NCBI RefSeq assembly: GCF_023516505.1
Contig: NZ_JAMGBB010000001.1
Span: 620,001-684,000 of the forward strand
Source: Sphingomonas brevis
GTDB taxonomy: Bacteria > Pseudomonadota > Alphaproteobacteria > Sphingomonadales > Sphingomonadaceae
DNA length: 64,000 nt
Reading direction: 5' to 3'
The translations under genes and the position numbers were made by a program. The notes under the pieces are model-generated. The model did not search any database and had not been told where the DNA came from. It saw only the letters and a list, made by a program, of their open reading frames with translations. Positions 45,406-60,485 of this stretch are shown one piece after another (within the stretch, counting starts at the first letter, position 1; every line of letters starts with the position of its first letter).

Positions 45406-48400
45406 GCCGGCTCCAGTTCCTTCTTCTCACTCACCGCTAGCACCCGCATCAGCCCGCGCGAAATTTGCAGCGCGCCCTGCAGCCGGGATTCGCCGGTCGG
45501 CCATTCGCGGCTGATTACCAGCTTGCTATCAGGTCTTAGTCTAGCCGCGCCCTTCAGTTTCGCGACATAATCGAGCAACCCGGGCAAATCGGGGAACCCA
45601 GATGGGGCGAAAGTGATCACCGCGCCCTTCGCACCAACGTCCAGCTTGGCGATCATCGCTTTTCTGCAATTGATCTTGGTTTCAACGATTTGCAGCAAGT
45701 TCTGAGTTTCCTCGGGCAGCTTGCCGAAACGGTCGATCAGCTCCGCCGCGAATGCCTCGACACCCTGCCGGTCCTCAAGCTCGCCTAGCCGGCGGTATAG
45801 GCCCATGCGAAGGTCAAGGTCGGGCACATAATGTTCCGGGATAAGGATCGGCGCCTCGACACTGATCTGAGGAGTGAATTCCTCGCGGCGCCGCTCCGTC
45901 GCGCCCGCTTTCTGCTCGAGGATCGCATCCTCCAGCATGGACTGATACAGCTCGAAGCCGACCTCCTTGATGTGTCCCGACTGCTCGTCGCCAAGCAAAT
46001 TGCCTGCTCCGCGAATGTCCAGGTCGTGGCTGGCCAGCTGGAAGCCGGCACCCAAGCTGTCGAGATTGGCCAGCACCTGCAGCCTCTTGTCAGCGCCTTC
46101 GGTCAACGCCCGGTCAGGCGGCGTCGTCAAATAGGCATAAGCCCGGGTCTTCGCGCGGCCGACGCGGCCTCGCAGCTGGTAGAGCTGCGCCAGGCCAAAT
46201 CGGTCGGCGCGATGGACAATCAGCGTATTGGCCGACGGGATATCGAGCCCGCTCTCGACGATGCTCGTCGACAGCAACACGTCATATTTCCGGTCGTAAA
46301 AGGCGCTGATCCGCTCCTCGACCTCGCCCGCGCCCATTTGCCCGTGGGCGGTGACCGCCTTCACTTCGGGGACCTCTTCGCGCAGCCATTCCTCCAGCTC
46401 GGGCAAATCGGCGATCCGCGGCGCGACCAGGAAGCTCTGGCCGCCGCGATAATGCTCGCGCAGCAGAGCCTCGCGCATCACCACGGCGTCCCAGGGTGCC
46501 ACATAAGTCCTGACCGCCAGGCGGTCGACCGGAGGGGTCTGGATGACCGACAGTTCGCGCAGGCCCGACATCGCCATCTGCAAGGTCCGGGGGATCGGTG
46601 TCGCGGTCAGCGTGAGGACGTGCACATCTTCTTTCAACGCCTTGAGCTTTTCCTTGTGCGCGACCCCGAAATGCTGCTCCTCGTCGACAATCACCAGGCC
46701 AAGCTTCTTGAACCCGATCGATTTCGACAGCAGCGCGTGGGTGCCGATGACGATATCGACCTTGCCCTGCTCCAGCCTCTCCCTGGTCGTCTTGGCCTCG
46801 GCCGCCGGGACCAGCCGCGACAGACGCCCGATCTCAACCGGGAAGCCCTGGAAACGCTCGACGAAATTGCGGTAGTGCTGCCTTGCTAGCAGCGTGGTCG
46901 GGCAGATCAGCGCCACCTGGTAGCCGGCCATTGCTGCCACGAACGCCGCGCGCAGCGCCACTTCGGTCTTGCCGAAGCCGACGTCTCCGCAGACCAGCCG
47001 GTCCATCGGCCTACCGCTGCCCAGATCCTCCAGCACCTCGGCGATCGCCCGGTCCTGATCGTCGGTCTCTTCAAATGGGAAACGGTCGACGAATTCCGGC
47101 AAAGTCGCATCCGCCTCGGCCACCTGGCCCGGCCGCGTTGCCCGGATCGCCGCGGTCTTGATCAGCTCGCCCGCGATCTCGCGGATCCGCTCCTTCATCC
47201 GCGCCTTGCGCCGCTGCCACGCCTCGCCGCCCAGCCGGTCGAGATTGGCCCCGTCTCCTGCGCCGCCATAACGGGTCAGAACGTCGATATTTTCGACCGG
47301 GACGTAGAGCCGGTCGCCGCCGGCGTAGGAGAGGGCGACGCAATCGTGCGGCGCCTTGCCGACCATCACCGACGTCAGCCCCTCATAGCGGCCGATGCCA
47401 TGCTCCATGTGCACGACCAGGTCGCCCGGCGTAAGTGCGGCCAGCTCGGCGAGGAAGGCATCGGCGCTCTTGCGCCGTTTCTTGCGCCGCACCAGCCGGT
47501 CGCCGAGCATGTCCTGCTCGGTAAGGACGGCGACGTCCGGTCCGGCAAATCCATGATCGAGCGGCAGGACGATCAGCGCCGCGTCGGTCCGGGCTCCCAA
47601 CGCTTCCTGCCAGCTGCCGGCCAGCTTCAGGCCCTTAAGGCCATGGTCCTCGAGCAATCCGGCAAGTCGCTCCCGAGCTCCCACCGTATAGCTCGCAAGA
47701 ACGACTTTCTTCTTGCCGTTCCGTAGTTTGACGACCTGTTTTGCGACCGCGTCATAGACATTGGCGCCTTGCGCGCGCTCCGGCCCAAAGTCGCGCGGAC
47801 CATCGACCCCGAAGTCGATGACCTTGCCGCCCTCCGGTTGCTGGAAGGGGGTGACCTGGTGAATCGGCCGCTCCTCCACGGCCCCGCGCCATTCCTTGTT
47901 CGATAAATAGAGCGATGAGGGAGCGAGCGGGCGATAACTGCCCGGCTCGGCGATCATCGCCTTTTCGCGATTGGCGAAATAATCGTCGATTGCTTCGTGC
48001 CGCGCTTCCAGCGCCCCGTCGGCGTTCGAATCCCGGACGATGACGTCGTTGTCGCCGAGATGGTCGAACAGGGTTGCAAGCTTCTCCTCGAGCAGCGGCA
48101 GCCAATGTTCCATCCCCGCCAGCCGCCGCCCGTCGCTGATCGCTTGATAGAGCGGGTCGCCGGTGGCGTTGGCGCCGAATTGTTCGCGATAACGCGCCCG
48201 GAACCGCTTGACTGTCGCCTCGTCGAGCAATGCCTCACTCGCCGGCATCAAGGTGAAGGCTTCGGCATTTCCCGTACTGCGCTGGTCGGCGGGGTCAAAC
48301 CGCCGCATCGTCTCAATTTCGTCGCCGAAGAAGTCGAGCCGAATCGCCTGTTCCTCGCCTGCCGGGAACAGGTCGACGATCGAGCCGCGCACCGCGAACT

Positions 48401-48899
48401 CCCCTTGGTCATGCACGGCATCGGTCCGCTGGTAGCCGTTGGCGACTAGCAGTTCGACCAGCCGGTCGCGCTCGATACGCTCGCCCTCTGCCAGTATCCG
48501 CGTCAGCTGGCGGATGCGGAATGGCGTAAGGATGCGCTGGGTGATCGCATTGGCTGTGGTCAGCAGCAGTTGCGGGCCCTTGCGCTTGCCCTGAAGCTTC
48601 TCCAGCGCAGCCAATCGCTCGGCCATCACTCGAAGGGCGGGGGATGCACGGTCGTAGGGCAGGCAGTCCCAGGCTGGAAAGCTCAGCACTTCTACCTCGG
48701 GTGCGAACACCGGCACAGTGTCCTGCAACGCACGCATCGCCGCTTCGTCGGCCGCGATGATCACCGCCCGGCCGCCATCGCCGGTCCCGTGCGCCGCCCG
48801 AGCGAGGTCCGACGCTAGCCAGGGCAGGAAGCCCGCCGGGACCCCGGCCAGTGTCAGCGGCCCCTCGGCCTTCAAAATGCGATTCAGCGGCTCGCTCAT
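45402..48899 (-). CDS. mfd: Transcription-repair coupling factor Mfd
   Basis: Removes RNA polymerase stalled at lesions and recruits UvrA. The 1165 residues are ordered as a UvrB-like N-terminal module, an RNA-polymerase-interacting CarD-like domain (TPGDLVVHMEHGIGRYEGL), RecG-like helicase motors (CGDVGFGKTEVALRAAF, IVDEEQHFGVAHKE, TATPIPRTLQMAMSG, STSIVESGLDIPSANTLIV, QLRGRVGRAK) and the C-terminal TRCF domain. ATG 48899 overlaps the sdhE stop (ATGA), so the two are coupled. Confidence 0.97.
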   Translation of the reverse strand: MSEPLNRILKAEGPLTLAGVPAGFLPWLASDLARAAHGTGDGGRAVIIAADEAAMRALQDTVPVFAPEVEVLSFPAWDCLPYDRASPALRVMAERLAALEKLQGKRKGPQLLLTTANAITQRILTPFRIRQLTRILAEGERIERDRLVELLVANGYQRTDAVHDQGEFAVRGSIVDLFPAGEEQAIRLDFFGDEIETMRRFDPADQRSTGNAEAFTLMPASEALLDEATVKRFRARYREQFGANATGDPLYQAISDGRRLAGMEHWLPLLEEKLATLFDHLGDNDVIVRDSNADGALEARHEAIDDYFANREKAMIAEPGSYRPLAPSSLYLSNKEWRGAVEERPIHQVTPFQQPEGGKVIDFGVDGPRDFGPERAQGANVYDAVAKQVVKLRNGKKKVVLASYTVGARERLAGLLEDHGLKGLKLAGSWQEALGARTDAALIVLPLDHGFAGPDVAVLTEQDMLGDRLVRRKKRRKSADAFLAELAALTPGDLVVHMEHGIGRYEGLTSVMVGKAPHDCVALSYAGGDRLYVPVENIDVLTRYGGAGDGANLDRLGGEAWQRRKARMKERIREIAGELIKTAAIRATRPGQVAEADATLPEFVDRFPFEETDDQDRAIAEVLEDLGSGRPMDRLVCGDVGFGKTEVALRAAFVAAMAGYQVALICPTTLLARQHYRNFVERFQGFPVEIGRLSRLVPAAEAKTTRERLEQGKVDIVIGTHALLSKSIGFKKLGLVIVDEEQHFGVAHKEKLKALKEDVHVLTLTATPIPRTLQMAMSGLRELSVIQTPPVDRLAVRTYVAPWDAVVMREALLREHYRGGQSFLVAPRIADLPELEEWLREEVPEVKAVTAHGQMGAGEVEERISAFYDRKYDVLLSTSIVESGLDIPSANTLIVHRADRFGLAQLYQLRGRVGRAKTRAYAYLTTPPDRALTEGADKRLQVLANLDSLGAGFQLASHDLDIRGAGNLLGDEQSGHIKEVGFELYQSMLEDAILEQKAGATERRREEFTPQISVEAPILIPEHYVPDLDLRMGLYRRLGELEDRQGVEAFAAELIDRFGKLPEETQNLLQIVETKINCRKAMIAKLDVGAKGAVITFAPSGFPDLPGLLDYVAKLKGAARLRPDSKLVISREWPTGESRLQGALQISRGLMRVLAVSEKKELEPA

Positions 48900-49156
48900 T
48901 TGGCTGTCCGGATGAAGTCGAGGCGCTTGAAGGCATCCATCATCGGCCCCTGGTAGCGTTCGGGCACATCCTGCGTCCCAATCGCCCAGGCCATGATGTC
49001 GACGTCCTGCTCGGTCAACAGTGCGGCGAACAGGGCGCGTTCGTGCGCGTCCCAGGATGCATGGTAGGCGTCGAAGAACCCGCCGATCATCATGTCGGCC
49101 TCGCGCGTCCCGCGATGCCAGGCGCGGTACTGCAGCGCCCGCATGACATCGTCCAT
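48896..49156 (-). CDS. sdhE: FAD assembly factor SdhE
   Basis: Small chaperone that promotes covalent flavinylation of succinate dehydrogenase SdhA. The 86 residues carry the signature WHRGTREADMMIGGFFDAY (the RGxxE motif) and DIMAWAIGTQDVPERYQGP. The start ATG 49156 (MDDVMRAL) is chosen because GGGAGG lies 9 bases upstream and the length then fits the family; ATG 49165 would sit too close to that site. It is divergent from recG with a 102-base gap. The recG / sdhE-mfd arrangement is common in alphaproteobacteria. Confidence 0.93.
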   Translation of the reverse strand: MDDVMRALQYRAWHRGTREADMMIGGFFDAYHASWDAHERALFAALLTEQDVDIMAWAIGTQDVPERYQGPMMDAFKRLDFIRTAK

Positions 49157-49258
49157 GACCAGCATTCCTCCCAACGCAAATCGACCCGCGGCGGACTCGC
49201 AGCGGGTTCTCGACGGTCCATGTAGGCAGTTGGCCTCGCTCTCGCTAGTGTCGCGCCG

Positions 49259-51316
49259 ATGCGTCCCGACTTGCTCAATCCACTATTCGCCGAAGTCGAG
49301 GCGTTGAAGGGCGTCGGGCCTGGAATCGCCAAATCTCTGGCCCGCCTCCACCTCACCCGCGCCATCGATCTCGCCTATCATTTGCCGACGGGGACGATCG
49401 ACCGGGTTCGTGCACCGCATGCAAGCCAGGCGCTCTTGGGCCGGATCGTGGTGCTTGACGTCTTGCCTGAGCAAGTCCGCGCCGGTTCGGGGAAGGCGCC
49501 GCTGCGCATCTACGCCCGTGACGACAACGACAACATGATTACGCTGACGTTCTTCAATAATCCGGCCTGGGCCAAGAAACAGCTGCCGCTCAACGAGATG
49601 CGGACCGTGATCGGCAAGCTCGATCAGTGGGGGCAGGAGTGGCAGATCGTCCATCCGGAAGTTCTGGAGCCGGCCAAGGCGAGCGAGGTTGCGCTGCGCG
49701 AGCCGGTCTATGGCCTGACCGAGGGCATCTCCAACAAGCGCATGCGCGAGCTGGCGCTGACCGGGCTGGAGCGCGCGCCCGAGCTTCCAGAATGGATTGA
49801 GCCGTCGCAGCTGGTACACGATCATTGGCCGGCCTGGCGTAAGGCGCTGGCTGAAATTCACTCCGATCCTGCCGCAACAAATGCCCGCAAGCGCCTGTCA
49901 TACGATGAGATTTTTGCCAACCAACTAGTGATGATGCTGCTTCGGCAGGTCGCTCGGCGCAAGAAGGGCGTTCCGCTCCAGGGCGATGGGCGGCTGACGG
50001 ACAAATTGCAGCTGCCTTACCAGCTTACCAACGCCCAGCAGCGGGTCATCGGCGAGATCCGCGGCGACATGGCCCAGGACCGACCGATGCTGCGCTTGCT
50101 CCAGGGTGACGTTGGCTCGGGCAAGACGCTGGTGGCGCTGCTTGCGATGCTGGAAGCGGTAGAGGCCGGCGCCCAGGCGGCGATGCTCGCCCCGACCGAA
50201 ATCCTCGCCCGCCAGCACCATGCTACCCTCCAGCGCCAGTGCGAGGCGATTGGCGTTCGCATCGCCATCCTTACTGGTCGCGAAAAAGGCCGGGCGCGTG
50301 ACTCCGTGCTGATGGGCCTCGCGGACGGCTCGATCGACATTCTCGTCGGCACCCACGCCATCTTCCAGCAGCATGTCGGCTACAAGAAGCTCGGGTTGAT
50401 CGTGATCGACGAGCAGCATCGCTTCGGCGTCTCGCAGCGGCTGTTGCTCAGCGAAAAGGCCGAGCATCCTCCACACCTGCTGGCAATGACGGCCACACCG
50501 ATTCCGCGCACGCTGACCCTGACCCACTATGGCGAAATGGACGTAAGCCGGATCGACGAGATGCCGCCCGGCCGTACGCCGGTGGAGACATTGGTGATCA
50601 GCGACCAGAAGCTGACCGACGTGGTCGACGGGCTGGGCCGGCACTTGGCTTCCGGCGGCCAGGCCTATTGGGTCTGCCCTTTGGTGGAGGAGAGCGAGGC
50701 GATCGACGCCGCTGCAGCCGAAGAGCGCGCTCGGCTGCTCCGCTTTCGCTTCGGCGAGACCAAGGTGGGCCTGGTCCATGGCCGGATGAAGGGCGCGGAG
50801 AAGGATGACGTCATGGCGTCATTCACCAATGGCGAGCTCGGCGTGTTGGTCGCCACAACTGTGATCGAGGTTGGGGTCGATGTCCCCAACGCTTCCTTGA
50901 TCATCGTCGAAGGGGCAGAGCGCTTCGGGCTCGCGCAGCTCCACCAGCTCCGTGGCCGGGTCGGGCGCGGGGCGGCGGCCAGCCGATGCATCCTGCTCCG
51001 CGGCCAAAATCTGACCGAAACCGGCAGGTCGCGCCTGGCCCTGATGCGCGAGACCAATGACGGTTTCCGCATTGCCGAGGAAGATCTGAAGCTGCGCGGG
51101 CCCGGCGAGATGCTCGGCACGCGCCAGTCGGGCGAGCAGCTGTTCAAGGTCGCTACTCCGGAGGACGTCGCCGAGCTGGCGCCAATCGCCCAGGGCGACG
51201 CCCGCCTGCTTCTCGATCGCGACGGTGGCCTGGCGTCGACCCGCGGCCAGGCCGCGCGACTGTGTCTCTATCTGTTTGAACGCGACGCGGCGGTGGAGCT
51301 GATTAGGGGCGGGTAG
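49259..51316 (+). CDS. recG: ATP-dependent DNA helicase RecG
   Basis: Branch-migrating helicase that reverses stalled forks. The 685 residues comprise an OB-fold wedge domain (GVGPGIAKSLARL, then ARDDNDNMITLTFFN), and helicase blocks LLQGDVGSGKTLVALLAML, MLAPTEILARQH, VIDEQHRFGVSQR, MTATPIPRTLTLT and QLRGRVGRGAAASRCIL with the C-terminal AEEDLKLRGPGEMLGTRQSG. The gene is complete up to its stop, 3 bases before the stop of the AT-richer gene at 51320, so the left edge of that foreign block falls exactly at the recG end. Confidence 0.96.
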   Translation: MRPDLLNPLFAEVEALKGVGPGIAKSLARLHLTRAIDLAYHLPTGTIDRVRAPHASQALLGRIVVLDVLPEQVRAGSGKAPLRIYARDDNDNMITLTFFNNPAWAKKQLPLNEMRTVIGKLDQWGQEWQIVHPEVLEPAKASEVALREPVYGLTEGISNKRMRELALTGLERAPELPEWIEPSQLVHDHWPAWRKALAEIHSDPAATNARKRLSYDEIFANQLVMMLLRQVARRKKGVPLQGDGRLTDKLQLPYQLTNAQQRVIGEIRGDMAQDRPMLRLLQGDVGSGKTLVALLAMLEAVEAGAQAAMLAPTEILARQHHATLQRQCEAIGVRIAILTGREKGRARDSVLMGLADGSIDILVGTHAIFQQHVGYKKLGLIVIDEQHRFGVSQRLLLSEKAEHPPHLLAMTATPIPRTLTLTHYGEMDVSRIDEMPPGRTPVETLVISDQKLTDVVDGLGRHLASGGQAYWVCPLVEESEAIDAAAAEERARLLRFRFGETKVGLVHGRMKGAEKDDVMASFTNGELGVLVATTVIEVGVDVPNASLIIVEGAERFGLAQLHQLRGRVGRGAAASRCILLRGQNLTETGRSRLALMRETNDGFRIAEEDLKLRGPGEMLGTRQSGEQLFKVATPEDVAELAPIAQGDARLLLDRDGGLASTRGQAARLCLYLFERDAAVELIRGG

Positions 51317-53060
51317 CGCCTAGAGGCCTGTCTGAGATCGGAGCGTAATAGCACGATCAATCAATCCTTCGATGGCTGGCGCTACGTTGCGAAGCGATAT
51401 CCGCCGCATATAGCGGAGGGGTCCCATCTCTACGAACAGCTTTCCGAAAACTTCGTCGGCAAAGCTGCTAGAAATCACAAACACATTGGCAAAATCCACT
51501 TCAAGGCGCAGTCCATCATCATCTCGCAGCAGATTTGAGATGTACCTTCGTGCTTCAATTCCTGATTGGCGACTCCCGAAGGTTTGACACAGGTCTTTTG
51601 CCTCAACTCTTAGAACGCCCCCTGCCTGCTCGTGTTTGCGTTCGATGTAGTCATAGGCCGGCGAGTGCTCACGCCCCCCAATTGTTAGTGCATGTTCAAT
51701 AAGCTGTGGATTTGCACAGTCGATTTGGCAAACAACGTATGTGCCCTTGTATGGAATACTTTCGTCACGGATATGCATCTCGCCCGCCTTTGTTACATAC
51801 AGATTGGCGTGCGCCGAGTTCAGGGCAAAAATACCAGATGAGGCCAGTGCTAGTTGGTAAGTGCCGTAGAGTCCGTTTCCCTGATTTGTCGATTTGTTTC
51901 GCGTAACGCCCTCTTGGATCGCTCGCTCAACGGCCTCGCATTCGTCCAGAATTCCAAGGCTACGCGCAACTCCGATTCCGGCATCTGCAACCGTAAATTC
52001 GAGAATGTCGTGATGTGACAACTTGTGGCAGATCAGAAACCCGCCCACGTGGGACTGTGAATGCGTAAGGACGTTATCGGTGATTTCATTAACGGCCCAC
52101 TCTAGTGCAGCAATATTGGCCCGGCTAAGATCTGTTTTTCGGAGCGCCGATTTGATGACCTTGTCAACCGCCACCTCGCGCTCATCTTGATCCAGATACT
52201 GTAGGACAGATGGATCTGACGAGTTGAGCCGAGGCTTCGCGAACTTCCGGTGCTCAACATAATGCGGCAGACCCAACTTGATGAGCCTTGTGCTGAGTTG
52301 TTGTTGTCGCGGTGCCCAATACTCAAACTCCACCTTTCTATCTCGGACAAGCCACCGGAGGTGAGCTGAGAGGGGCGGAATGACCGAATGTGTAATGGAC
52401 GTTAGGCTCGAAAAATCTAGAGTAACGTCCGGATATCCCGCCTTGGAAACAAGTTGGTGTAGTGCCGAGATAAGGCGCGGCAATGAGTTGAGTCTCAAAT
52501 CGCCAAAAATCTGAATTCTGTTTTGTTGGTGTCTAACCTCAAAAAACAAGTTTGAATTCGTCATTGGATTTCACTGCCTGGGCAAAAGCACGCCGTGAGA
52601 TTTGCGCCCCGCCGACACGCGGACGGGTTCAGTTAAGATGATGACGTATTTCTCGTCCAATATCTTCTCACCGTTTACTCGAGCACCTCCTTGTCGAATT
52701 AGCCGCCGCGCTTCTCCCTTCGATACACACAGCTCCAAGGATGCCAAGGCATCGACAAGACCAATTGATCCGCCGTCGACTGTATAAGTTGGAAGGCTTG
52801 CACTTATTCCTCCCTCAGAAAACACCTCTTGTGCCGACTTGGCTGCTGCTTCTGCCGCCTTCCGGCCATGCAACAGCGCCGTCGCCTCAGTCGCCAGGAT
52901 TTCCTTTACCTCATTGAGCTCTTGCCCTTGGCGCTTATCGAGTTCCGCAATCTGATCGAGAGGTAAATCTGTAAAGAGCTTGAGGAATTTTCCGACATCA
53001 CCATCTGCAGTATCCCGCCAGAATTGCCAATAATCGTAAGCGGATAGTTGGTCGGCATTG
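51317..53060. other. AT-richer block: putative horizontally acquired segment
   Basis: Hand counts of 60-base lines give G+C of 29/60 (51841), 29/60 (52441), 30/60 (52741) and 27/60 (52981), against 40/60 (53101) and 41/60 (53161) next door. The change falls inside tyrS, just downstream of its KMGKT motif in coding direction. The other edge is at the recG stop. No transposase, integrase or flanking direct repeat was found, so homologous recombination within tyrS is the simplest route. Confidence 0.75.
51320..52564 (-). CDS. STAS - GHKL ATPase - STAS-like (DUF4325-type) protein
   Basis: A 414-residue cytoplasmic protein not belonging to a pathway I can name. Residues about 5-105 look like a STAS domain (VTLDFSSLTSITHSVIPPL). 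Residues about 125-285 form a GHKL/HATPase fold: N-box EWAVNEITDNVLTHSQ (Glu160, Asn164), G1 VADAGIGVARSL (Asp194) and G2 NQGNGLYGTYQLA. Residues about 320-395 match the STAS-like DUF4325 pattern (SGIEARRYISNLL, VFVISSSFADEVFGKLF). No His-phosphoacceptor or membrane segment is seen. The architecture recalls anti-sigma/anti-anti-sigma switches joined in one chain. It follows tyrS by 6 bases without a clear ribosome site, suggesting coupling. Codon use is AT-richer than its neighbours. Confidence 0.78.
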   Translation of the reverse strand: MTNSNLFFEVRHQQNRIQIFGDLRLNSLPRLISALHQLVSKAGYPDVTLDFSSLTSITHSVIPPLSAHLRWLVRDRKVEFEYWAPRQQQLSTRLIKLGLPHYVEHRKFAKPRLNSSDPSVLQYLDQDEREVAVDKVIKSALRKTDLSRANIAALEWAVNEITDNVLTHSQSHVGGFLICHKLSHHDILEFTVADAGIGVARSLGILDECEAVERAIQEGVTRNKSTNQGNGLYGTYQLALASSGIFALNSAHANLYVTKAGEMHIRDESIPYKGTYVVCQIDCANPQLIEHALTIGGREHSPAYDYIERKHEQAGGVLRVEAKDLCQTFGSRQSGIEARRYISNLLRDDDGLRLEVDFANVFVISSSFADEVFGKLFVEMGPLRYMRRISLRNVAPAIEGLIDRAITLRSQTGL

Positions 53061-53800
53061 AGCCAAACGGCACCGCTGGCGGTCTTGCCCATCTTGGCGC
53101 CGTCAGCGGTGGTGATGAGCGGTGTTGTGACGCCGAACAGCTCGGTGCCGTCCATGCGGCGGGCAAGGTCGACGCCGTTGACGATATTGCCCCACTGGTC
53201 CGACCCGCCGAGCTGCAGGCGGCAGGCATGCCGCAGCGCAAGCTCGCGGAAGTCATAGGCCTGGAGGATCATGTAATTGAACTCCAGGAACGTCAGCGGC
53301 TGCTCCCGGTCGAGCCTGAGCTTAACCGAATCGAAGGTCAGCATGCGGTTGACCGTAAAATGCGGGCCGACGGTGCGCAGCAGGTCGATGTAGGCGAGCT
53401 TGCCTAGCCAATCGTCATTGTCGACCATGATCGCATCGGTCGGACCGTCACCGAAGGTCAAGAAATGTTCGAAGACCTTGCGGATCGACGCGATGTTGGC
53501 CTGAATATCCTCGTGACTCAACAGCTTGCGGCTTTCGTCCTTGCCGCTGGGATCGCCGATCTTGGTCGTCCCTCCGCCCATCAACACGATCGGCTTGTGC
53601 CCGGCCTGCTGCATTCGCCTGAGCATCATGATCTGCACCAGGCTGCCGACATGCAGGCTCGGCGCCGTTGCGTCGAAGCCGATATAGCCGGTTACAACCT
53701 CGCGTGACGCCAATGCGTCGAGCCCGGCGCTATCCGTAGCCTGGTGGATATAGCCGCGCTCGTCGAGCAGGCGGAGCAGGGAGGATTTGAATTCGCTCAT
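52571..53800 (-). CDS. tyrS: Tyrosyl-tRNA synthetase (compositionally chimeric)
   Basis: Class I synthetase charging tRNA-Tyr, 409 residues. The HIGH-type motif is SLHVGSL (about 48-54), the tyrosine pocket includes LQLGGSDQWGNIVNG, and the KMSKS-type motif is KMGKT (236-240). The C-terminal S4 RNA-binding domain is present (ELCVSKGEARRLIRQGGARVNGEK), with a complete end. Codons for residues up to about 247 are GC-rich like the rest of the window, whereas the remaining 160 are clearly AT-richer and use rarer codons. The protein reads as intact, so the change marks recombination with a related tyrS, not damage. Confidence 0.95.
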   Translation of the reverse strand: MSEFKSSLLRLLDERGYIHQATDSAGLDALASREVVTGYIGFDATAPSLHVGSLVQIMMLRRMQQAGHKPIVLMGGGTTKIGDPSGKDESRKLLSHEDIQANIASIRKVFEHFLTFGDGPTDAIMVDNDDWLGKLAYIDLLRTVGPHFTVNRMLTFDSVKLRLDREQPLTFLEFNYMILQAYDFRELALRHACRLQLGGSDQWGNIVNGVDLARRMDGTELFGVTTPLITTADGAKMGKTASGAVWLNADQLSAYDYWQFWRDTADGDVGKFLKLFTDLPLDQIAELDKRQGQELNEVKEILATEATALLHGRKAAEAAAKSAQEVFSEGGISASLPTYTVDGGSIGLVDALASLELCVSKGEARRLIRQGGARVNGEKILDEKYVIILTEPVRVSAGRKSHGVLLPRQ

Positions 53801-53832
53801 CGAAATGCTCGCTTAGCTACGCAATTCAACTT

Positions 53833-53942
53833 CGTCATCCCCGCGCAAGCGGGGACCCAGTGAAAAGCAAAAACTAGGTTCCATGACCAAAACCAGCACT
53901 TTCTGGGGGAAAGTGCGTTTTGGTCATTTCGCGGGAATGACG
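53833..53942. repeat. Palindromic repeat interrupted by a second palindrome
   Basis: Outer halves match the repeat at 1745-1814: left CCCCGCGCAAGCGGGGACCC, right CTAGGTTCC and TTCGCGGGAATGACG. Between the two right-hand pieces lies 53883-53927, a near-perfect hairpin with arms ATGACCAAAAC-CA-GCACTTTC and GAAAGTGCGTTTTGGTCAT around about 5 loop bases; the uninterrupted copy has only CGCT there. Confidence 0.9.
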
Positions 53943-53955
53943 TTAGGGTTTGTCC

Positions 53956-54477
53956 GTGCCCAGCCTTTACCGCCATCCCGATGCCCCTGCCGGCGCGATC
54001 CAGTCGATCGACGCGGAGCTTGAGCGCATGAGCGACGGCGCAGTCGCCATCTTCCTGGTTCGCGGTGACCTTGCGAAACTGGTCATTCCGCCACCCGCCT
54101 TGCCCGGACGGGCCGACAACCTCTGGCGCACGACCTGCTTCGAACTATTCGTGTCTGGCGAGGCCCAGGCCTACCGCGAATTCAACTTTTCGCCGTCGGG
54201 TCAGTGGGCGGCTTATGGTTTCGCCGGCTATCGTTCGGGCATGGCCAATGCAGATGCATCGGTCGAAACCGAATTATTTCATGAAAATAATCAGTTGCAG
54301 TTCAGTGCTGAGATCAGAACCATATTTCCCAACCCCGCGCATGTCGGCCTCACGGCGGTGATTGAAGACGTCGGCGGCACCATCAGCTACTGGTCAACCG
54401 CCTTCGCTCCGGGCAAGCCCGATTTTCACGCCGCGGCGGTGCGGTCCCTGCTTTTGGATGGAGTAAGCGCGGAATGA
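53956..54477 (+). CDS. DOMON-like domain protein
   Basis: A protein of about 173 residues, mostly beta-strand in pattern, with VIPPPALPGRADNLWRTTCF, FELFVSGEAQAYREFNFSPS and QWAAYGFAGYRSGM. The ELFV..YREFNFSPSG.W..Y signature is that of DOMON-like/carbohydrate-binding-type proteins common in sphingomonads. No signal peptide, no catalytic residues recognised. GTG 53956 is chosen because AGGG lies 7 bases upstream; TTG 53950 is the alternative. The next gene starts inside its stop (ATGA), so it is probably co-translated with the NamZ-like protein and may help it with sugar ligands (inference). Confidence 0.75.
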   Translation: MPSLYRHPDAPAGAIQSIDAELERMSDGAVAIFLVRGDLAKLVIPPPALPGRADNLWRTTCFELFVSGEAQAYREFNFSPSGQWAAYGFAGYRSGMANADASVETELFHENNQLQFSAEIRTIFPNPAHVGLTAVIEDVGGTISYWSTAFAPGKPDFHAAAVRSLLLDGVSAE

Positions 54478-55676
54478 TGTTGGGCGTTGAACGGCTTCTG
54501 GTCGACCCGGAACTGCGCAAGCCGATAGAGGGCAAGCGCGTCGCGCTGGTCGCGCACCCGGCGTCGGTCACCTATCACCTAACTCACAGCCTCGATGCGC
54601 TAGCCGAAGCGGGGATCCGCCTCACGGCCGCCTTTGGTCCGCAGCATGGCCTTCGCGGCGACAAGCAGGACAATATGGTCGAAAGCCCGGATTTCATCGA
54701 TCCGGTCCACGAAATCCCGGTCTTCAGCCTCTACGGCGAAGTTCGCCGTCCGACCGGCCAGTCAATGTCTACCTTTGATGTCGTGCTGATCGACCTGCAG
54801 GACGTCGGTTGCCGCATCTACACCTTCATCACCACCTTGCTCTACATGCTCGAAGCCGCGGCCGAGCATGGCAAGGCGGTTTGGGTGCTCGACCGGCCCA
54901 ACCCCGCCGGCAGGCCGGTCGAGGGGCTGACGCTTCGGCCCGGCTGGGAAAGCTTCGTTGGCGCCGGTCCGATCCCGATGCGCCATGGCCTTACGCTAGG
55001 TGAGCTCGGCCGCTGGTTCGTCGACCATTTCAAGCTCGACGTCGACTATCGCGTGATCGAGATGGAGGGTTATCGCCCCGGCGAGGGACCGGGCTTCGGC
55101 TGGCCGACCGACCGCATCTGGGTGAACCCGTCCCCCAATGCCGCCAACCTCAACATGGCGCGATGCTATGCCGGGACGGTCATGCTCGAAGGTGCGACAT
55201 TGAGCGAGGGCAGGGGCACCACTCGCCCTCTCGAACTTTTCGGCGCACCCGACATCGACGCTCGGGCAGTCATCAAGGTCATGCGCGACACCGCGCCGCA
55301 ATGGCTCGAAGGCTGCATCCTGCGCGATATCTCGTTCGAGCCAACCTTTCACAAGCATGTCGGCCAGCTCTGCAGCGGCGTGCATATCCACGCCGAGGGT
55401 GATCTATACGATCACCAGGCGTTCAAGCCGTGGCGGCTGCAATCGCTGGCCTTCAAGGCGATCCGCAAGCTTTTCCCGGATTATGAGATCTGGCGCGGCA
55501 AAGACTTCGCCTACGAATATACTAACGATGTCCTGGCCATCGACGTCATCAACGGCTCGCCGCTGCTCCGCGAATGGGTCGAAGATCCAAACGCCGAGCC
55601 CGGCGACCTTGATGCGATCACTGTGCCCGACGAGCAGGCGTGGGCTGAGGAGCGCCGATCCTATCTGCTTTATTAG
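54474..55676 (+). CDS. DUF1343 / NamZ-like exo-beta-N-acetylmuramidase
   Basis: A 400-residue DUF1343 protein. The founding enzyme NamZ of Bacillus subtilis removes MurNAc from the non-reducing end of peptidoglycan fragments. Family blocks seen are GKRVALVAHPASVT, AAFGPQHGLRGDKQDNM, PVFSLYGEVRRPT, FDVVLIDLQDVGCRIYTF, VLDRPNPAGRPVEG, NPSPNAANLNMARCYAGTV, LEGATLSEGRGTTRPLELFG and FEPTFHKHVGQLCSGVHIH. The N-terminus has no signal peptide, unlike NamZ, suggesting a cytoplasmic role on imported muropeptide sugars. That would supply AmgK/MurU encoded at 26974-28733. Confidence 0.88.
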   Translation: MMLGVERLLVDPELRKPIEGKRVALVAHPASVTYHLTHSLDALAEAGIRLTAAFGPQHGLRGDKQDNMVESPDFIDPVHEIPVFSLYGEVRRPTGQSMSTFDVVLIDLQDVGCRIYTFITTLLYMLEAAAEHGKAVWVLDRPNPAGRPVEGLTLRPGWESFVGAGPIPMRHGLTLGELGRWFVDHFKLDVDYRVIEMEGYRPGEGPGFGWPTDRIWVNPSPNAANLNMARCYAGTVMLEGATLSEGRGTTRPLELFGAPDIDARAVIKVMRDTAPQWLEGCILRDISFEPTFHKHVGQLCSGVHIHAEGDLYDHQAFKPWRLQSLAFKAIRKLFPDYEIWRGKDFAYEYTNDVLAIDVINGSPLLREWVEDPNAEPGDLDAITVPDEQAWAEERRSYLLY

Positions 55677-56854
55677 CGCTTGCGGCTTAGCTCGCGCATC
55701 GCATCGTCGAGACCGTCCAGCGTAAGCGAATACATCCGCTCATCCATCAGCCGCTTCAAAATCGCGGTCGAGGCCGAGTGGCCCCAATAGGCTTCCGGCG
55801 TCGGGTTGATCCACGCCGCACTTGGATAGGCATCGGTCAGCCGCTTAAGCCAAACCGCGCCTGCTTCATCGTTCATATGCTCGATCGACCCGCCCGCATG
55901 GGTGATCTCATAGGGGCTCATCGACGCATCGCCGACGATCACCAGCTTATGATCCCGGCCGAATTTGTGGATGACGTCATGCGTCGGCGTCTTTTCGACA
56001 TGTCGGCGGCGGTTATCCTTCCACACGCCCTCGTAGACGCAATTGTGGAAGTAGAAATGCTCGAGGTGCTTGAACTCGCTCTTGCATGCCGAGAACAGCT
56101 CCTCGGCAATCCTCACATGCCCGTCCATCGACCCGCCGATGTCCAGGAACAGCAGAACCTTGACCGCATTGTGCCGCTCGGGCCGCATATGGACATCTAG
56201 CCACCCGCGGCGCGCCGTGCCGTCGATCGTCCCGTCGAGGTCAAGTTCCTCGGCTGCGCCTTCCCGGGCGAAACGCCGCAAGCGCCGCAAAGCCACCTTG
56301 ATGTTGCGCGTGCCAAGATCCTGGGTGCCGTCCAGGTCCCTGAACTCGCGCTTTTCCCACACCTTGATCGCCCGGCCGTGCCGCCCCGGTCCGCCGATCC
56401 GCACCCCTTCCGGATTATAGCCGCCGTGACCGAAGGGCGATGTGCCGCCGGTGCCGATCCATTTGCTGCCGCCCTGGTGCCGGCCCTGTTGCTCGGCCAG
56501 CCGGTCCTTCAGCACCTGCATAATCTCTTCCCAGCTGCCGAGACTCTTGATCGCCTCCATCTGCTCGGGCGTCAGATATGCCTCGGCGATGAGCTTCAGC
56601 CATTCCTCGGGAATTTCCGCGACGATCCCTTCGGCGCCGGTCGCGATCAGCCCCTTGAACACTTCGGCGAACACCCGGTCGAAGCGGTCGAGCTGGCTTT
56701 CGTCATGAACGAAGGTTGCGCGGGCCAGATAGTAGAATTGCTCGGGGTCGGCCGAAATCACCTCCGCGTCCATCGCCTCGAGGAGCAGCAGATGCTCCTT
56801 CAGAGAGGCAGGAATACCGCCTTTGCGGAGCGCTTCGACGAAACCAATGAACAT
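55673..56854 (-). CDS. VWA domain protein of the CoxE-like type
   Basis: Product of about 393 residues, probably cytosolic. The first half resembles proteins that start with a helical region (FVEALRKGGIPASLKEHLLL) and have GTGGTSPFGHGGYNPEG and RNIKVALRRLRRFAREG. The second half is a von Willebrand A domain with a MIDAS-like site VLLFLDIGGSMDGH, in which the usual DxSxS reads D-I-G-G-S. Such proteins pair with MoxR-type ATPases in metalloenzyme maturation or complex remodelling; a MoxR gene lies nearby at 59643, separated by two genes. The start is uncertain: ATG 56854 fits homologues, ATG 56890 is 12 codons upstream, and neither has a good ribosome site. Confidence 0.85.
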   Translation of the reverse strand: MFIGFVEALRKGGIPASLKEHLLLLEAMDAEVISADPEQFYYLARATFVHDESQLDRFDRVFAEVFKGLIATGAEGIVAEIPEEWLKLIAEAYLTPEQMEAIKSLGSWEEIMQVLKDRLAEQQGRHQGGSKWIGTGGTSPFGHGGYNPEGVRIGGPGRHGRAIKVWEKREFRDLDGTQDLGTRNIKVALRRLRRFAREGAAEELDLDGTIDGTARRGWLDVHMRPERHNAVKVLLFLDIGGSMDGHVRIAEELFSACKSEFKHLEHFYFHNCVYEGVWKDNRRRHVEKTPTHDVIHKFGRDHKLVIVGDASMSPYEITHAGGSIEHMNDEAGAVWLKRLTDAYPSAAWINPTPEAYWGHSASTAILKRLMDERMYSLTLDGLDDAMRELSRKR

Positions 56855-56892
56855 CTGGAAAACCGTCACCCCGGACTTGATGATCGGCATGC

Positions 56893-56915
56893 GGCACTGT
56901 CAGGGGGACAGTGCC
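56893..56915. promoter_or_regulatory. Perfect hairpin upstream of the VWA gene
   Basis: Perfect 9-bp inverted repeat GGCACTGTC / GACAGTGCC with loop AGGGG, directly before the first possible start codon of the VWA gene. It lacks a T-tract and could be a leader structure or a short dispersed hairpin. Confidence 0.5.
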
Positions 56916-56963
56916 GGTCTGATCATGGGTCTGCCTTTCTGTGTCTTCCGTAAGAAGTAAGGC

Positions 56964-56990
56964 GGATGCCGGGTCAAGCCCGGCATGACG
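56964..56990. repeat. Short palindromic repeat (GCCGGGTCAAGCCCGGCATGACG)
   Basis: Hairpin GCCGGG-TCAA-GCCCGGC with the GATG / CATGACG ends of the same broad repeat class. It is located between divergent VWA and chemoreceptor genes. Confidence 0.8.
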
Positions 56991-57074
56991 ATCTCCCGGC
57001 CCGGGCATAGTTAACTAGGCTTTAGCACTTGGCCGGTAAGCCATGCCCGGATTGTTAGTGGGGAACTGGGTCAA

Positions 57075-58472
57075 ATGGCCACGCTCGGCATTGAAGAAAT
57101 TACCGAAAATGCGATCCGGAATGTCGCTCGCGACTGTGGCTCGCTGTCGATCGAGTGCAGCGACGTTGCCGGTTACGTCGAAGGTGTGGCCGAGCGGATC
57201 GGCGAGCATCTGAAGGTGCTCGACACGCTCGAGGAAGTGACCACCCGCCTTCTCGCCGACCAGGCCCGCGTATCGGATTCGACCGACGAAGCCCGGCTTC
57301 TTTCCGAACAAGCCAAGGCCAAGCTCGAAGCCGGGCGTGAGGCGATCGACGGAACTATTCAGGGGTTCAAGGGCCTGACCGAGCTGGTCGTCCAACTGGG
57401 CGAGCGGATGGCGGGCTTCGCTTCGGCAATGAACCAGGTTCAGACTGTTTCTTCGACAATCGAGACGATTGCCCGCAAGACCAATATGCTGGCGCTCAAT
57501 GCCACGATCGAGGCAGCGCGAGCCGGAGATGCCGGCCGCAGCTTTGCCGTCGTCGCCGCCGAAGTGAAGAAACTGGCCCATGACACGCGCGCAGCGACTA
57601 GTCAGATCGCATCCACCATTGGTGAGCTGACCCGCGAGGCCAGTGCCGTAACGTCAGAGATCAAGACCGGCGTCGAGCGCAGCCGCGCCGCCCAAACCGG
57701 ATTCAGCGCCATCAGTGACACGGTCAAGGAAGTGACCGAGATCGTCTCCATGGTCGATCGCCAGACCGAGGGCATCGCCCATTCCACGAGCCTTATTCAG
57801 ACCAGCGTGGACCGCGTTAAGGCAGGGCTCAGCGATTTCGCCGGCGATGCGCGCGACAATGGCGGCAAGCTGATCAAGGCCCAGAAGCGCCTCAGCCACC
57901 TGGAAATGCTGTCCAACAATATGCTCGACACGCTTGCCAATTCGGGCGCGGACATCGACGATACGCCGATGATCCTGCTCGCCCAGGAAGCGATGCGGGC
58001 GATCAACGCCGCCGTCGAACAGGCGATCGACCGCGGCGAGATCAGCATGGAGGCAGTCCACGACCGCAATTACCAGCTGATCGAGGGCTCAAACCCGCCG
58101 CAGTACAACAACGGCTTTGCCGAGACGGCCGACAGGCTGGTCCGGCCCCTGCTCGACAAGTTCAAGTCGAAGGAGCCGAAGATCATCGGATCGGCGATAA
58201 CCAACCTGGACGGCTATCTGCCGACCCATCTCAGCGAGCGGTCGAAATCTCCGGGGCCGGATCCGGTGTGGAACGATGCCAATTGCCGCAACAAGCGCAT
58301 CTTCATGGACGAAATTACCCGCAAGGCTTGTGAAAGCGAGCAGCCGGCGATGTTGTCGACCTATCGGATGGAGCTTGGCGACAAATATATTCCGGTGAAG
58401 AACGTCTTCGTGCCGCTTTATTTCAAGGGCCGCCGCTGGGGCAATTTCGAGCTGGCCTACAGGGACGAATGA
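57075..58472 (+). CDS. Soluble methyl-accepting chemotaxis-like protein
   Basis: A 465-residue cytoplasmic chemoreceptor-like protein without membrane helices. A coiled-coil region with the receptor hairpin tip is clear ([40 protein letters not shown]), followed by [16 protein letters not shown]. The C-terminal part (about 330-465) has [18 protein letters not shown] and a globular end [13 protein letters not shown], possibly a degenerate sensory domain. No CheW, CheA or flagellar gene is within this window. AACTGGGT before the ATG is a weak ribosome site. Confidence 0.85.
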
Positions 58473-59642
58473 TCAGGGGCAGGCGCGTGACAGCGCCTGC
58501 TCAAGATCGTCGATCAAATCCTCTGGGTCTTCCAAACCAACATTGAGGCGGACAAGCAATTTGCCCGTCTCCGGCGTTGGGCGCCTGAGATCGCCATAGG
58601 TCATGACCAGGCTGCCTGCGCCGCCCCAGCTGTAGCCAATGCCGAACAGCTCCAGCGCATCGACGAAGCAGACAACCTGCTCGCGGGTCCAATTTCCGAA
58701 AATCACGGAGAAGATGCTGGCCGAGCCAGTCCAATCGCGCTGCCAGATGTCATGACCGGGACAGTCCGGAAAGGCAGGATGGAGCAGGGCGGTGACCTCA
58801 TCGCGCTCCTTGAGCCATTGCGCGACTTTCAGCGCCGAATCTCCGAGCCGCTGCAGCCGGACGTCAAGCGTCTTGAGGCCCCGAAGCACCAGCGAGCAAT
58901 CGTCGGGCGAAACGCCCATGCCAAGCAGCCGTTGGGCCGCGCGCAATTGCTGGTCCAGCTTGACGTCCCGAGTGGTGATAGACCCCAGCAGCAGATCGCT
59001 GTGGCCGCCGGCATATTTGGTTAGCGCCTGGACGCTGATGTCTACCCCGGCGCCATAGGCGTCGAACAATACGCCAGCACCATAGGTGTTATCGATAGCG
59101 ACCAGCACGCCGCGTTCGTGGGCGGCCGCGCAGATCGCCGGAACGTCCTGTACCTCCATTGTGATCGAGCCCGGGCTTTCGGTCCAAATCAATCGGGTCT
59201 CGCGGCGGATCAGGTCCGAAATGCCCGCGCCGATCATAGGGTCGTAGCGCTCGACCTCGATGCCCAGGTCCTTCAAAGTGTCGAATGCCAGTTCGGTGTT
59301 GGGGCCATAGGCGCTGCGGGTCAGCAGCACATGGTCGCCCGACTTGCAGAATGCGAAATAGGGCAAGGCGATCGCGGCCTGGCCGCTGGGTACAATCAAG
59401 CAATGCTCGGCGCCCTCTATGGCGGCGATCTGCAGCGCCAGCTCGCGCACTGTCGGCGTGCCGTATAGGCCGTAGCGATATTGGTCGGGGTCGCTGGAAT
59501 CCCGCGCATCGGCCACGGATTTGAATAATACGGTCGATCCGCGCGATGTGGACGTAGCGAGCGACTGGAAATCGGTTGAAGCCCGGCGATCCGGGCGGAT
59601 CAGCCTGGTTGCGAGCCGGCGCCTTTTCGGCTCGTCAGGCAC
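58473..59642 (-). CDS. metC: Cystathionine beta-lyase
   Basis: PLP-dependent enzyme of the Cys/Met-metabolism family that splits cystathionine to homocysteine, pyruvate and ammonia. The 389 residues show QYRYGLYGTPTVRELALQ, LIVPSGQAAIALPYF, VAIDNTYGAGVLFDAYGAG and the Schiff-base Lys209 in VQALTKYAGGHSDLLLGS. This combination, with VIWTESPGSITMEVQD-type wording, fits MetC better than gamma-synthase. The GTG start follows the moxR stop directly (TAG-GTG), so it is co-transcribed with moxR. Confidence 0.9.
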   Translation of the reverse strand: MPDEPKRRRLATRLIRPDRRASTDFQSLATSTSRGSTVLFKSVADARDSSDPDQYRYGLYGTPTVRELALQIAAIEGAEHCLIVPSGQAAIALPYFAFCKSGDHVLLTRSAYGPNTELAFDTLKDLGIEVERYDPMIGAGISDLIRRETRLIWTESPGSITMEVQDVPAICAAAHERGVLVAIDNTYGAGVLFDAYGAGVDISVQALTKYAGGHSDLLLGSITTRDVKLDQQLRAAQRLLGMGVSPDDCSLVLRGLKTLDVRLQRLGDSALKVAQWLKERDEVTALLHPAFPDCPGHDIWQRDWTGSASIFSVIFGNWTREQVVCFVDALELFGIGYSWGGAGSLVMTYGDLRRPTPETGKLLVRLNVGLEDPEDLIDDLEQALSRACP

Positions 59643-60485
59643 CTAGACCTTGCGCCTCGCCATGAAAGCCAACCTCTCGAACAACATCACGTCCTGCTCG
59701 TTCTTGAGCAGCGCACCGTGGAGCGGCGGGATCGCCTTCGTCGGATCCTGGTTCTGCAGCACCTCGAGCGGCATGTCCTCGTGCAGCAGCAGTTTTAGCC
59801 AGTCGAGCAGTTCGCTGGTCGACGGTTTCTTCTTGAGGCCCGGAACCTCGCGAATGTCATAGAAGATGTCGAGCGCGCGGCTGACCAGCAGCTTCTGGAT
59901 ACCAGGGAAATGGACGTCGATGATCGCGCTCATCGTATCGCGGTCGGGAAAGCGGATGTAATGGAAGAAGCAGCGGCGCAGGAAGGCGTCGGGAAGCTCC
60001 TTTTCATTGTTCGACGTTATCACCACTACCGGCCGGTCGACCGCCTTCACAGTCTCGTTGGTTTCGTAGACGTGGAACTCCATCCGATCGAGTTCCTGGA
60101 GGAGGTCGTTGGGGAATTCGATATCGGCCTTGTCGATCTCGTCGATCAGCAACACGGGCAGCTGGGGAGAGGTGAATGCGTCCCACAGCTTGCCACGCTT
60201 GATGTAGTTCTTGATGTCATGGACCCGCTCGTCGCCGAGCTGTCCGTCGCGCAAGCGGGCAACGGCGTCATATTCATACAATCCCTGGACGGCCCGGGTG
60301 GTCGACTTGATATGCCACTCGATCAGAGGGGCGCCGAGCGCTTCGGCGATTTCGTGTGCCAGCACCGTCTTTCCCGTCCCCGGCTCGCCCTTGACCAGCA
60401 AGGGGCGGCGCAACTTGACGGCGGCATTGACCGCGACCTTGAGGTCATCGGTCGCGACATAGTTGGAAGTGCCTTCGAAACGCAT
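59643..60485 (-). CDS. MoxR-family AAA+ ATPase
   Basis: A 280-residue AAA+ ATPase of the MoxR group, which acts as a chaperone in assembling enzyme complexes, often with a VWA partner. Walker A is VKGEPGTGKTVLAHEIA, Walker B VLLIDEIDKADIEFPNDLL, sensor 1 VVITSNNEKELPDAFLRRC with the arginine finger, and HFPGIQKLL follows. The VWA protein at 55673 is the most likely partner, though a chemoreceptor and metC intervene. A palindromic repeat lies 24 bases upstream of the start. Confidence 0.92.
   Translation of the reverse strand: MRFEGTSNYVATDDLKVAVNAAVKLRRPLLVKGEPGTGKTVLAHEIAEALGAPLIEWHIKSTTRAVQGLYEYDAVARLRDGQLGDERVHDIKNYIKRGKLWDAFTSPQLPVLLIDEIDKADIEFPNDLLQELDRMEFHVYETNETVKAVDRPVVVITSNNEKELPDAFLRRCFFHYIRFPDRDTMSAIIDVHFPGIQKLLVSRALDIFYDIREVPGLKKKPSTSELLDWLKLLLHEDMPLEVLQNQDPTKAIPPLHGALLKNEQDVMLFERLAFMARRKV

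Follow-up and report, generated by a model that had tools for sequence, protein, structure and literature searches.

An apparently mosaic tyrS gene in Sphingomonas brevis and the probable import of a STAS-GHKL-DUF4325 gene by recombination anchored within it

Mosaic genes, and cargo carried in by a homology arm, are already known: the available text of one study discusses homology-facilitated illegitimate recombination and mosaic gene replacement for T6SS effector modules (PMC5361080). As far as that text describes them, such modules resemble the Sphingomonas brevis locus reported here, where a conserved 5' stretch would likewise have anchored incoming DNA while a variable 3' end and a new gene replaced what was there before. 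The two differ in that the anchor here would be tyrS, an essential housekeeping gene left complete, and a putative signalling protein forms the cargo.

The cargo, in turn, can be compared with kinase-substrate pairs built from STAS and GHKL domains. According to the accessible sections of a second study (PMC13373217), CapS, a STAS protein, is the phosphorylation substrate of CapK, an HTH-STAS-GHKL protein whose kinase activity is triggered by single-stranded DNA; the same relation has been proposed between VapK and the STAS antitoxin VapS. As portrayed there, CapK/CapS and VapKSC share with the cargo the STAS and GHKL kinase domains and a STAS substrate in which a Ser or Thr is conserved. In contrast to them, the cargo holds kinase and putative substrate in one chain, the STAS-like domain being fused C-terminally with no separate STAS gene next door, and it sits between tyrS and recG rather than beside a toxin or in an immune operon. 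The cargo also resembles the RsbW-type SpoIIAB/SpoIIAA system in its GHKL fold and in an N-terminal STAS domain that is weakly SpoIIAA-like (E 0.049-0.07, profile match to anti-sigma F factor antagonist), but it carries STAS domains on both sides of the kinase within a single protein, and no sigma factor partner is known.

We analysed a 64,000-nt stretch of the 2.59-Mb S. brevis genome (hereafter the window) and compared it with 70 further genomes of its genus, g1. Three genes make up the locus: recG on the forward strand (49259-51316) and, on the reverse strand, the 414-aa cargo gene (51320-52564) and tyrS (52571-53800), with tyrS named from domain and profile similarity and recG from the initial annotation and by eye. 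The cargo starts 6 nt past the tyrS stop, and the cargo and recG stops lie 3 nt apart. In 400-nt windows, G+C was 0.49-0.57 at ~51,200-53,200 vs. 0.575-0.69 over the rest of positions 46,000-60,000. Third-position G+C (GC3) was 0.830 in tyrS codons 1-247 and 0.519 in codons 248-409; the cargo gene also stood at 0.519, and recG at 0.804 overall and 0.800 in its final 60 codons. By maximum likelihood the GC3 breakpoint in tyrS fell at codon 243 (range 239-252 within 2 lnL, ~53,044-53,083 on the forward strand), with a dlnL of 23.4 that was reached by 0 of 2000 permutations; the low-G+C tract extends as far as the recG stop. As a control, the scan was applied to every mechanically picked window ORF that reached 250 codons (n = 32); the tyrS break came out strongest, at a dlnL of 23.7, the runner-up having 13.0. 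The cargo is not the only gene with a low GC3: five other picked ORFs of the window, each shorter than 180 codons, were also below 0.52 over their whole length.

The native character of recG persisted up to its stop codon, in composition as in similarity to the congener G014: the proteins were 88% identical over residues 1-685, and DNA identity in 147-nt blocks was 0.75-0.88, with 0.77 in the final block. TyrRS was full length, with matches to tRNA-synt_1b, S4 and TIGR00234, and the genome has a single tyrS place. The initial annotation, which had put a G+C break inside tyrS near codon 247, just after the KMGKT motif, had read TyrRS as complete and had taken the recG stop as the other edge of the foreign DNA, therefore held on each of these points. 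A dispersed repeat, palindromic by eye and with parts matching 18 further places in the genome, lies just upstream of tyrS at 53831-53943. In G014, a LysR-like gene (by eye) precedes recG (locus L094, 1843-2739) and is missing at the same place in the window.

The tyrS-recG junction of relatives lacks the cargo. Among the 24 g1 rows besides the query, 22 had recG downstream of tyrS in tail-to-tail orientation; of the remaining two, one had no recG within 1.5 kb and one stopped at a contig edge. The spacing in these 22 congeners was a 4-nt overlap in 12 and an estimated -9 and -23 nt in two more, such that the genes abut or overlap in 14/22, including the two closest relatives, in which they overlap tail to tail; gaps measured 72-92 nt in two others and 450-586 nt in six. 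The 414-aa cargo gene was absent from the flanks of all 24 rows. Beyond the genus, recG occurred in the fetched flank downstream of tyrS in 25/39 rows of other family genera and in 13/20 further loci. Two of the g1 gaps have features of their own: that of G018 (L023; G+C 0.55) holds a 175-aa COQ7-like gene (by eye), another gene settled in the junction, and that of G019 (L016) spans 586 nt at a G+C of 0.53, tyrS there being free of a GC3 break.

The two parts of the query TyrRS have different affinities. Residues 1-245 were 89.0% identical to G014 and 73.9-81.9% identical to 21 further full-length congeners, vs. 57.4% and 42.7-55.9%, respectively, for residues 246-409. The ratio of mean identity in the C-part to that in the N-part was 0.641 for the query, compared to 0.781-0.907 in the 22 congeners, and the drop is thus abnormal. 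GC3 of the tyrS C-parts in the same 22 congeners was 0.67-0.91 vs. 0.52 in the query; an AT-rich 3' end in relatives that lack the cargo, which would have spoken against import, was not seen. In a search of 396 genomes of the order with the C-part, 39 genomes outside the genus outranked the first congener, the best at 63%; the best among 295 genomes of genus g16 was likewise 63%, while within the 71 g1 genomes the best other match was 58% and three genomes had no match.

Diagnostic columns separated the two parts further (L072 and L084 were left out of the other-genera consensus). The query had the genus state at 4/5 columns in residues 1-250, whereas in residues 251-409 it had the genus state at 2/12 and the other-genera state at 8/12. 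Characters of the G014-G127 pair were shared at 5/7 positions in residues 1-250 and at 2/8 in residues 251-409. The non-congener signature was clearest in the S4 domain (Pfam S4; residues 348-385, 52646-52759, reverse strand): across residues 361-397 the query carried the residue of other genera at 8/9 columns, and at 6/7 of those fixed in 23/23 congeners. Among 25 g1 rows, the query alone had the S4 signature of other genera, a type found, in the broad sense, in 59/64 rows of those genera. Residues 262-340 were neutral, with a best identity of 0.62 on both sides, and residues 310-311 (LH) were in the genus state in 24/24 g1 rows including the query and in none of the others. Therefore, the extent of foreign sequence within tyrS rests more on composition than on phylogeny.

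The S4 domain also varied elsewhere. Five loci outside the genus, L072 and L084 (both g16), L116 (g34), L121 (g54) and L124 (g62), have a tyrS with the g1 type of S4 domain, and their N-parts showed no strongly supported grouping with g1. These ends hint at more exchange of the tyrS 3' end. In the two g16 loci the S4 state is mixed, and exchange of S4 type there is only hinted at by these residues.

Separate trees placed the two parts of the query TyrRS differently. With 81 rows, residues 1-245 of the query grouped with G014 and G127 (SH-aLRT 96), while residues 262-409 fell outside a 29-row clade (SH-aLRT 96) made up of the 24 other g1 rows and five of other genera. With 69 rows, the N-part placement recurred at an SH-aLRT of 88-89, and in the tree of residues 250-409 genus g1 minus the query was supported at 99. 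Genus g1 was not a single clade in either N tree, and the query C-part formed a long branch (0.74-0.93) in both trees. For these analyses the truncated tyrS L035 was dropped, as were 8 near-duplicate rows from the 81-row set, 12 rows from the AU tests on residues 335-409, and the order-level outgroups from those on 1-245 and 250-409. Genus g49, which is low in G+C, grouped with the query in the 69-row C tree (support 82) and not in the 81-row tree.

AU tests bear on whether the tyrS 3' third might be native and have undergone rapid drift of both sequence and composition, possibly once the cargo had arrived, which we regard as improbable. Over residues 250-409, neither monophyly of g1 (p 0.288) nor the trio of query, G014 and G127 (p 0.111) was rejected; the former is compatible with drift, as are the long C-part branch and the genus or sister states kept at residues 310-311 and 289/293. 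On the other hand, over residues 335-409, a stretch picked with the identities already known, the clade of query, G014 and G127 was rejected (p 0.029) and g1 monophyly was borderline (p 0.051). The GC3 step is sharp, and drift would hardly have restored a set of other-genera residues at six of seven fixed columns. For the same 335-409 stretch, a tree holding the query with all type-A rows was not rejected (p 0.706) and outscored the free tree, so that the free search there was not exhaustive; the S4 end of the query may be a basal branch of the genus-type lineage. For the N-part (residues 1-245), a clade of the query and the non-g1 rows was rejected (p 0.019), one of the query and g49 alone narrowly not (p 0.060). 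With parts that have different closest relatives and a sharp GC3 breakpoint between them, tyrS reads as a mosaic gene. Its native part comprises codons 1-242 with the catalytic domain (53075-53800, reverse strand), sister to G014, and its putatively replaced part runs from about codon 243 to the stop (52571-53074, reverse strand).

Searches returned no close donor for the 154-aa C-part, with 63% the best identity in overlapping sets of 396 genomes of the order, 295 of g16, 71 of g1 and 4 of g49, among which 383, 290, 68 and 4, respectively, had any match. The best plasmid match was 59.6%, to Sphingomonas, and viral contigs gave none. No genome with tyrS followed by the cargo gene was found in these searches. 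The tract as a whole had no match in plasmids, and its two proteins had no relatives in viral contigs. The cargo alone had distant matches (22-30% identity) in three plasmid and two phage records, and a phage or plasmid origin for it was not supported. Genomic islands in icd or guaA leave a foreign 3' end that restores the host gene in frame, followed by new DNA. A small site-specific element integrated into the tyrS coding sequence and carrying a replacement 3' end could have produced the same picture here. We consider this extremely improbable, since the tract is one gene without an integrase, the 3 nt between the cargo and recG stops leave no room for a displaced 3' end, and plasmids and viral contigs gave no counterpart.

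The cargo protein would consist of an N-terminal STAS domain (STAS_2, residues 19-80; 52325-52510, reverse strand), a GHKL ATPase (HATPase_c_2) and a C-terminal, STAS-like DUF4325 domain (residues 340-397; 51374-51547, reverse strand). The Pfam match to DUF4325 was above cut-off (E 1.7e-11), and those to HATPase_c_2 (E 8.9e-5) and STAS_2 (E 2.6e-4) were below theirs; with its ATP motifs intact, the sequence nevertheless reads as a STAS domain followed by a GHKL domain. The AlphaFold2 model had a mean pLDDT of 81.8 and a pTM of 0.79, and Foldseek aligned its kinase part with SpoIIAB (1til_E; TM-score 0.69 by target length) at rank 34, below Hsp90/TRAP1-type GHKL proteins of poor global fit. We aligned the protein with 14 of 16 homolog loci, some trimmed to the matched stretch, leaving out L054 and L055, which match residues 125-412 only. 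In these 15 rows, D194, G196, GNGL and SSSFADE were invariant, as were 13/14 positions of residues 155-168 (EWAVNEITDNVLTH; 52061-52102, reverse strand), which we take to be the N-box. Neither the window protein nor that of G104, a genome of genus g20, has the Trp that is near-invariant in the homologs (NANWAH stretch, residue 99 region), and these two may form a subfamily.

Ser366 (51467-51469, reverse strand), within the SSSFADE motif, is the proposed phosphoacceptor. The family profile matched the solved VapS structure (PDB 9z7o) weakly at DUF4325 (E 0.019), with a VapS serine opposite Ser366. By analogy with CapK/CapS, the cargo plausibly unites a kinase with its STAS substrate in a single chain: the GHKL domain would phosphorylate a Ser in the protein's own DUF4325 domain and so switch a bound partner. 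All 15 rows also matched the PADLOC DrmA model PDLC02567 (best E 2.4e-41), the window protein at positions 111-388 of 1750 (E 4.2e-26), in the N-terminal region of the model only. Unlike DrmA of DISARM, the cargo shows no helicase match in its 414 aa; the available portion of a paper on YprA/DrmA helicases makes no mention of HATPase, GHKL, STAS or DUF4325 (PMC12458937). The DUF4325 family is little-studied, and a literature search on VapS in phage defence yielded no matching case.

The cargo was also searched for in other genomes. Among the 70 other g1 genomes, 69 had no match and none had a full-length one; a single congener matched weakly at residues 152-241 (E 4.1e-5). Of the 71 g1 genomes with the query, 53 had a completeness of 90% or more and a contamination of 5% or less. 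The order sample of 396 genomes held one clear homolog, that of G104, matching in two pieces (57% and 43%), and five more genomes with weak partial matches (E 1.5e-9 to 6.9e-4). G104 was the only one of 80 g20 genomes with a homolog, and in the class sample 3/288 other genomes matched at E up to 1e-20. The G104 gene (L093, 6376-8459), the nearest homolog of the cargo, is interrupted by ~845 nt of G+C 0.61 and adjoined by a transposase-like gene (by eye), its pieces having a G+C of 0.39-0.44 within surroundings of 0.64-0.68. Homologs of residues 125-412 adjoin type I restriction-modification genes in L055 and lie just before such genes in L054; given these neighbours, the window gene could conceivably have a role in defence.

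The family's surroundings also bear on whether the locus arose in two events, one being insertion of the cargo by itself between tyrS and recG and the other an independent exchange of the tyrS 3' third, earlier or later. Neither tyrS nor recG was found near a cargo homolog in 21 places (flanks of up to 6 kb at 16 loci, 1.5 kb at four and 16 kb in G104), and these places showed no link of the family to tyrS. Elsewhere the cargo is often a low-G+C gene in higher-G+C surroundings (e.g., 0.46 vs. 0.67 in L040 and 0.46 vs. 0.62 in L110), and where the difference is large the low-G+C stretch often ends within ~150 nt of the homolog. The difference is small in others, e.g., L043, L044, L109 and L112, and in L042, L053, L111 and L112 the flanks are also low or uneven in G+C. 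Because the family is AT-rich relative to several hosts even with no tyrS piece beside it, the equal GC3 of tyrS end and cargo is weaker evidence of joint arrival than it appears. The S4 end of tyrS, moreover, varies in type between genera and in the two g16 genomes. Against separate events, the low-G+C pieces are contiguous and share a GC3 of 0.519, no second tyrS place was found, and one event is simpler than two; on balance, we think two events unlikely.

A single import anchored in tyrS is the explanation that we favour, and we consider it probable: a tract of ~1.75 kb (51317-53074) would have overwritten the tyrS 3' third and brought in the cargo. Such recombination within tyrS, as proposed by the initial annotation, is supported by the discordant trees, the GC3 break and the cargo-less junctions of congeners. 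Since the tyrS 3' part and the cargo are contiguous with equal GC3, we infer that they arrived together, from one donor and by homologous recombination. The donor strand would have recombined with the resident tyrS in a well conserved part, around codons 239-252, and everything from that breakpoint to the recG stop codon would have been replaced. The native 3' third would thereby have been lost and a diverged, homologous one have taken its place, and since the incoming sequence is homologous, the TyrRS reading frame was kept and the protein remained whole. The gene next downstream in the donor, encoding the STAS-GHKL-DUF4325 protein, would have entered with the tyrS end, and behind tyrS it is now probably part of the tyrS operon. 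The left junction may have formed by a second crossover or by illegitimate end joining. Homology is clear at the tyrS end of the tract; since recG lies downstream of tyrS in many family members, the left end may also be homologous.

A narrow literature search for chimeric TyrRS, or for intragenic exchange in aminoacyl-tRNA synthetases, returned no such case. Much more tentatively, and with considerable doubt, the tyrS-recG junction could be a recurring exchange point in the family, with two S4 types crossing genus lines, accessory genes settling there and core-gene recombination carrying them, and the cargo could be a one-chain relative of the immune controllers CapK/CapS and VapK/VapS. The cargo points to a DUF4325 family in which a GHKL kinase may be fused to its own STAS substrate. 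In this single genome, an essential core gene appears to have acted as the homology arm for the import of an accessory gene, the tract being free of mobile elements. Should this be general, searches for foreign genes that are restricted to islands or integrases would miss such imports, which a scan for within-gene breaks in composition and tree placement beside changes in gene content would detect. In this way, ordinary recombination may supply bacteria with additional genes even where no mobile element takes part.
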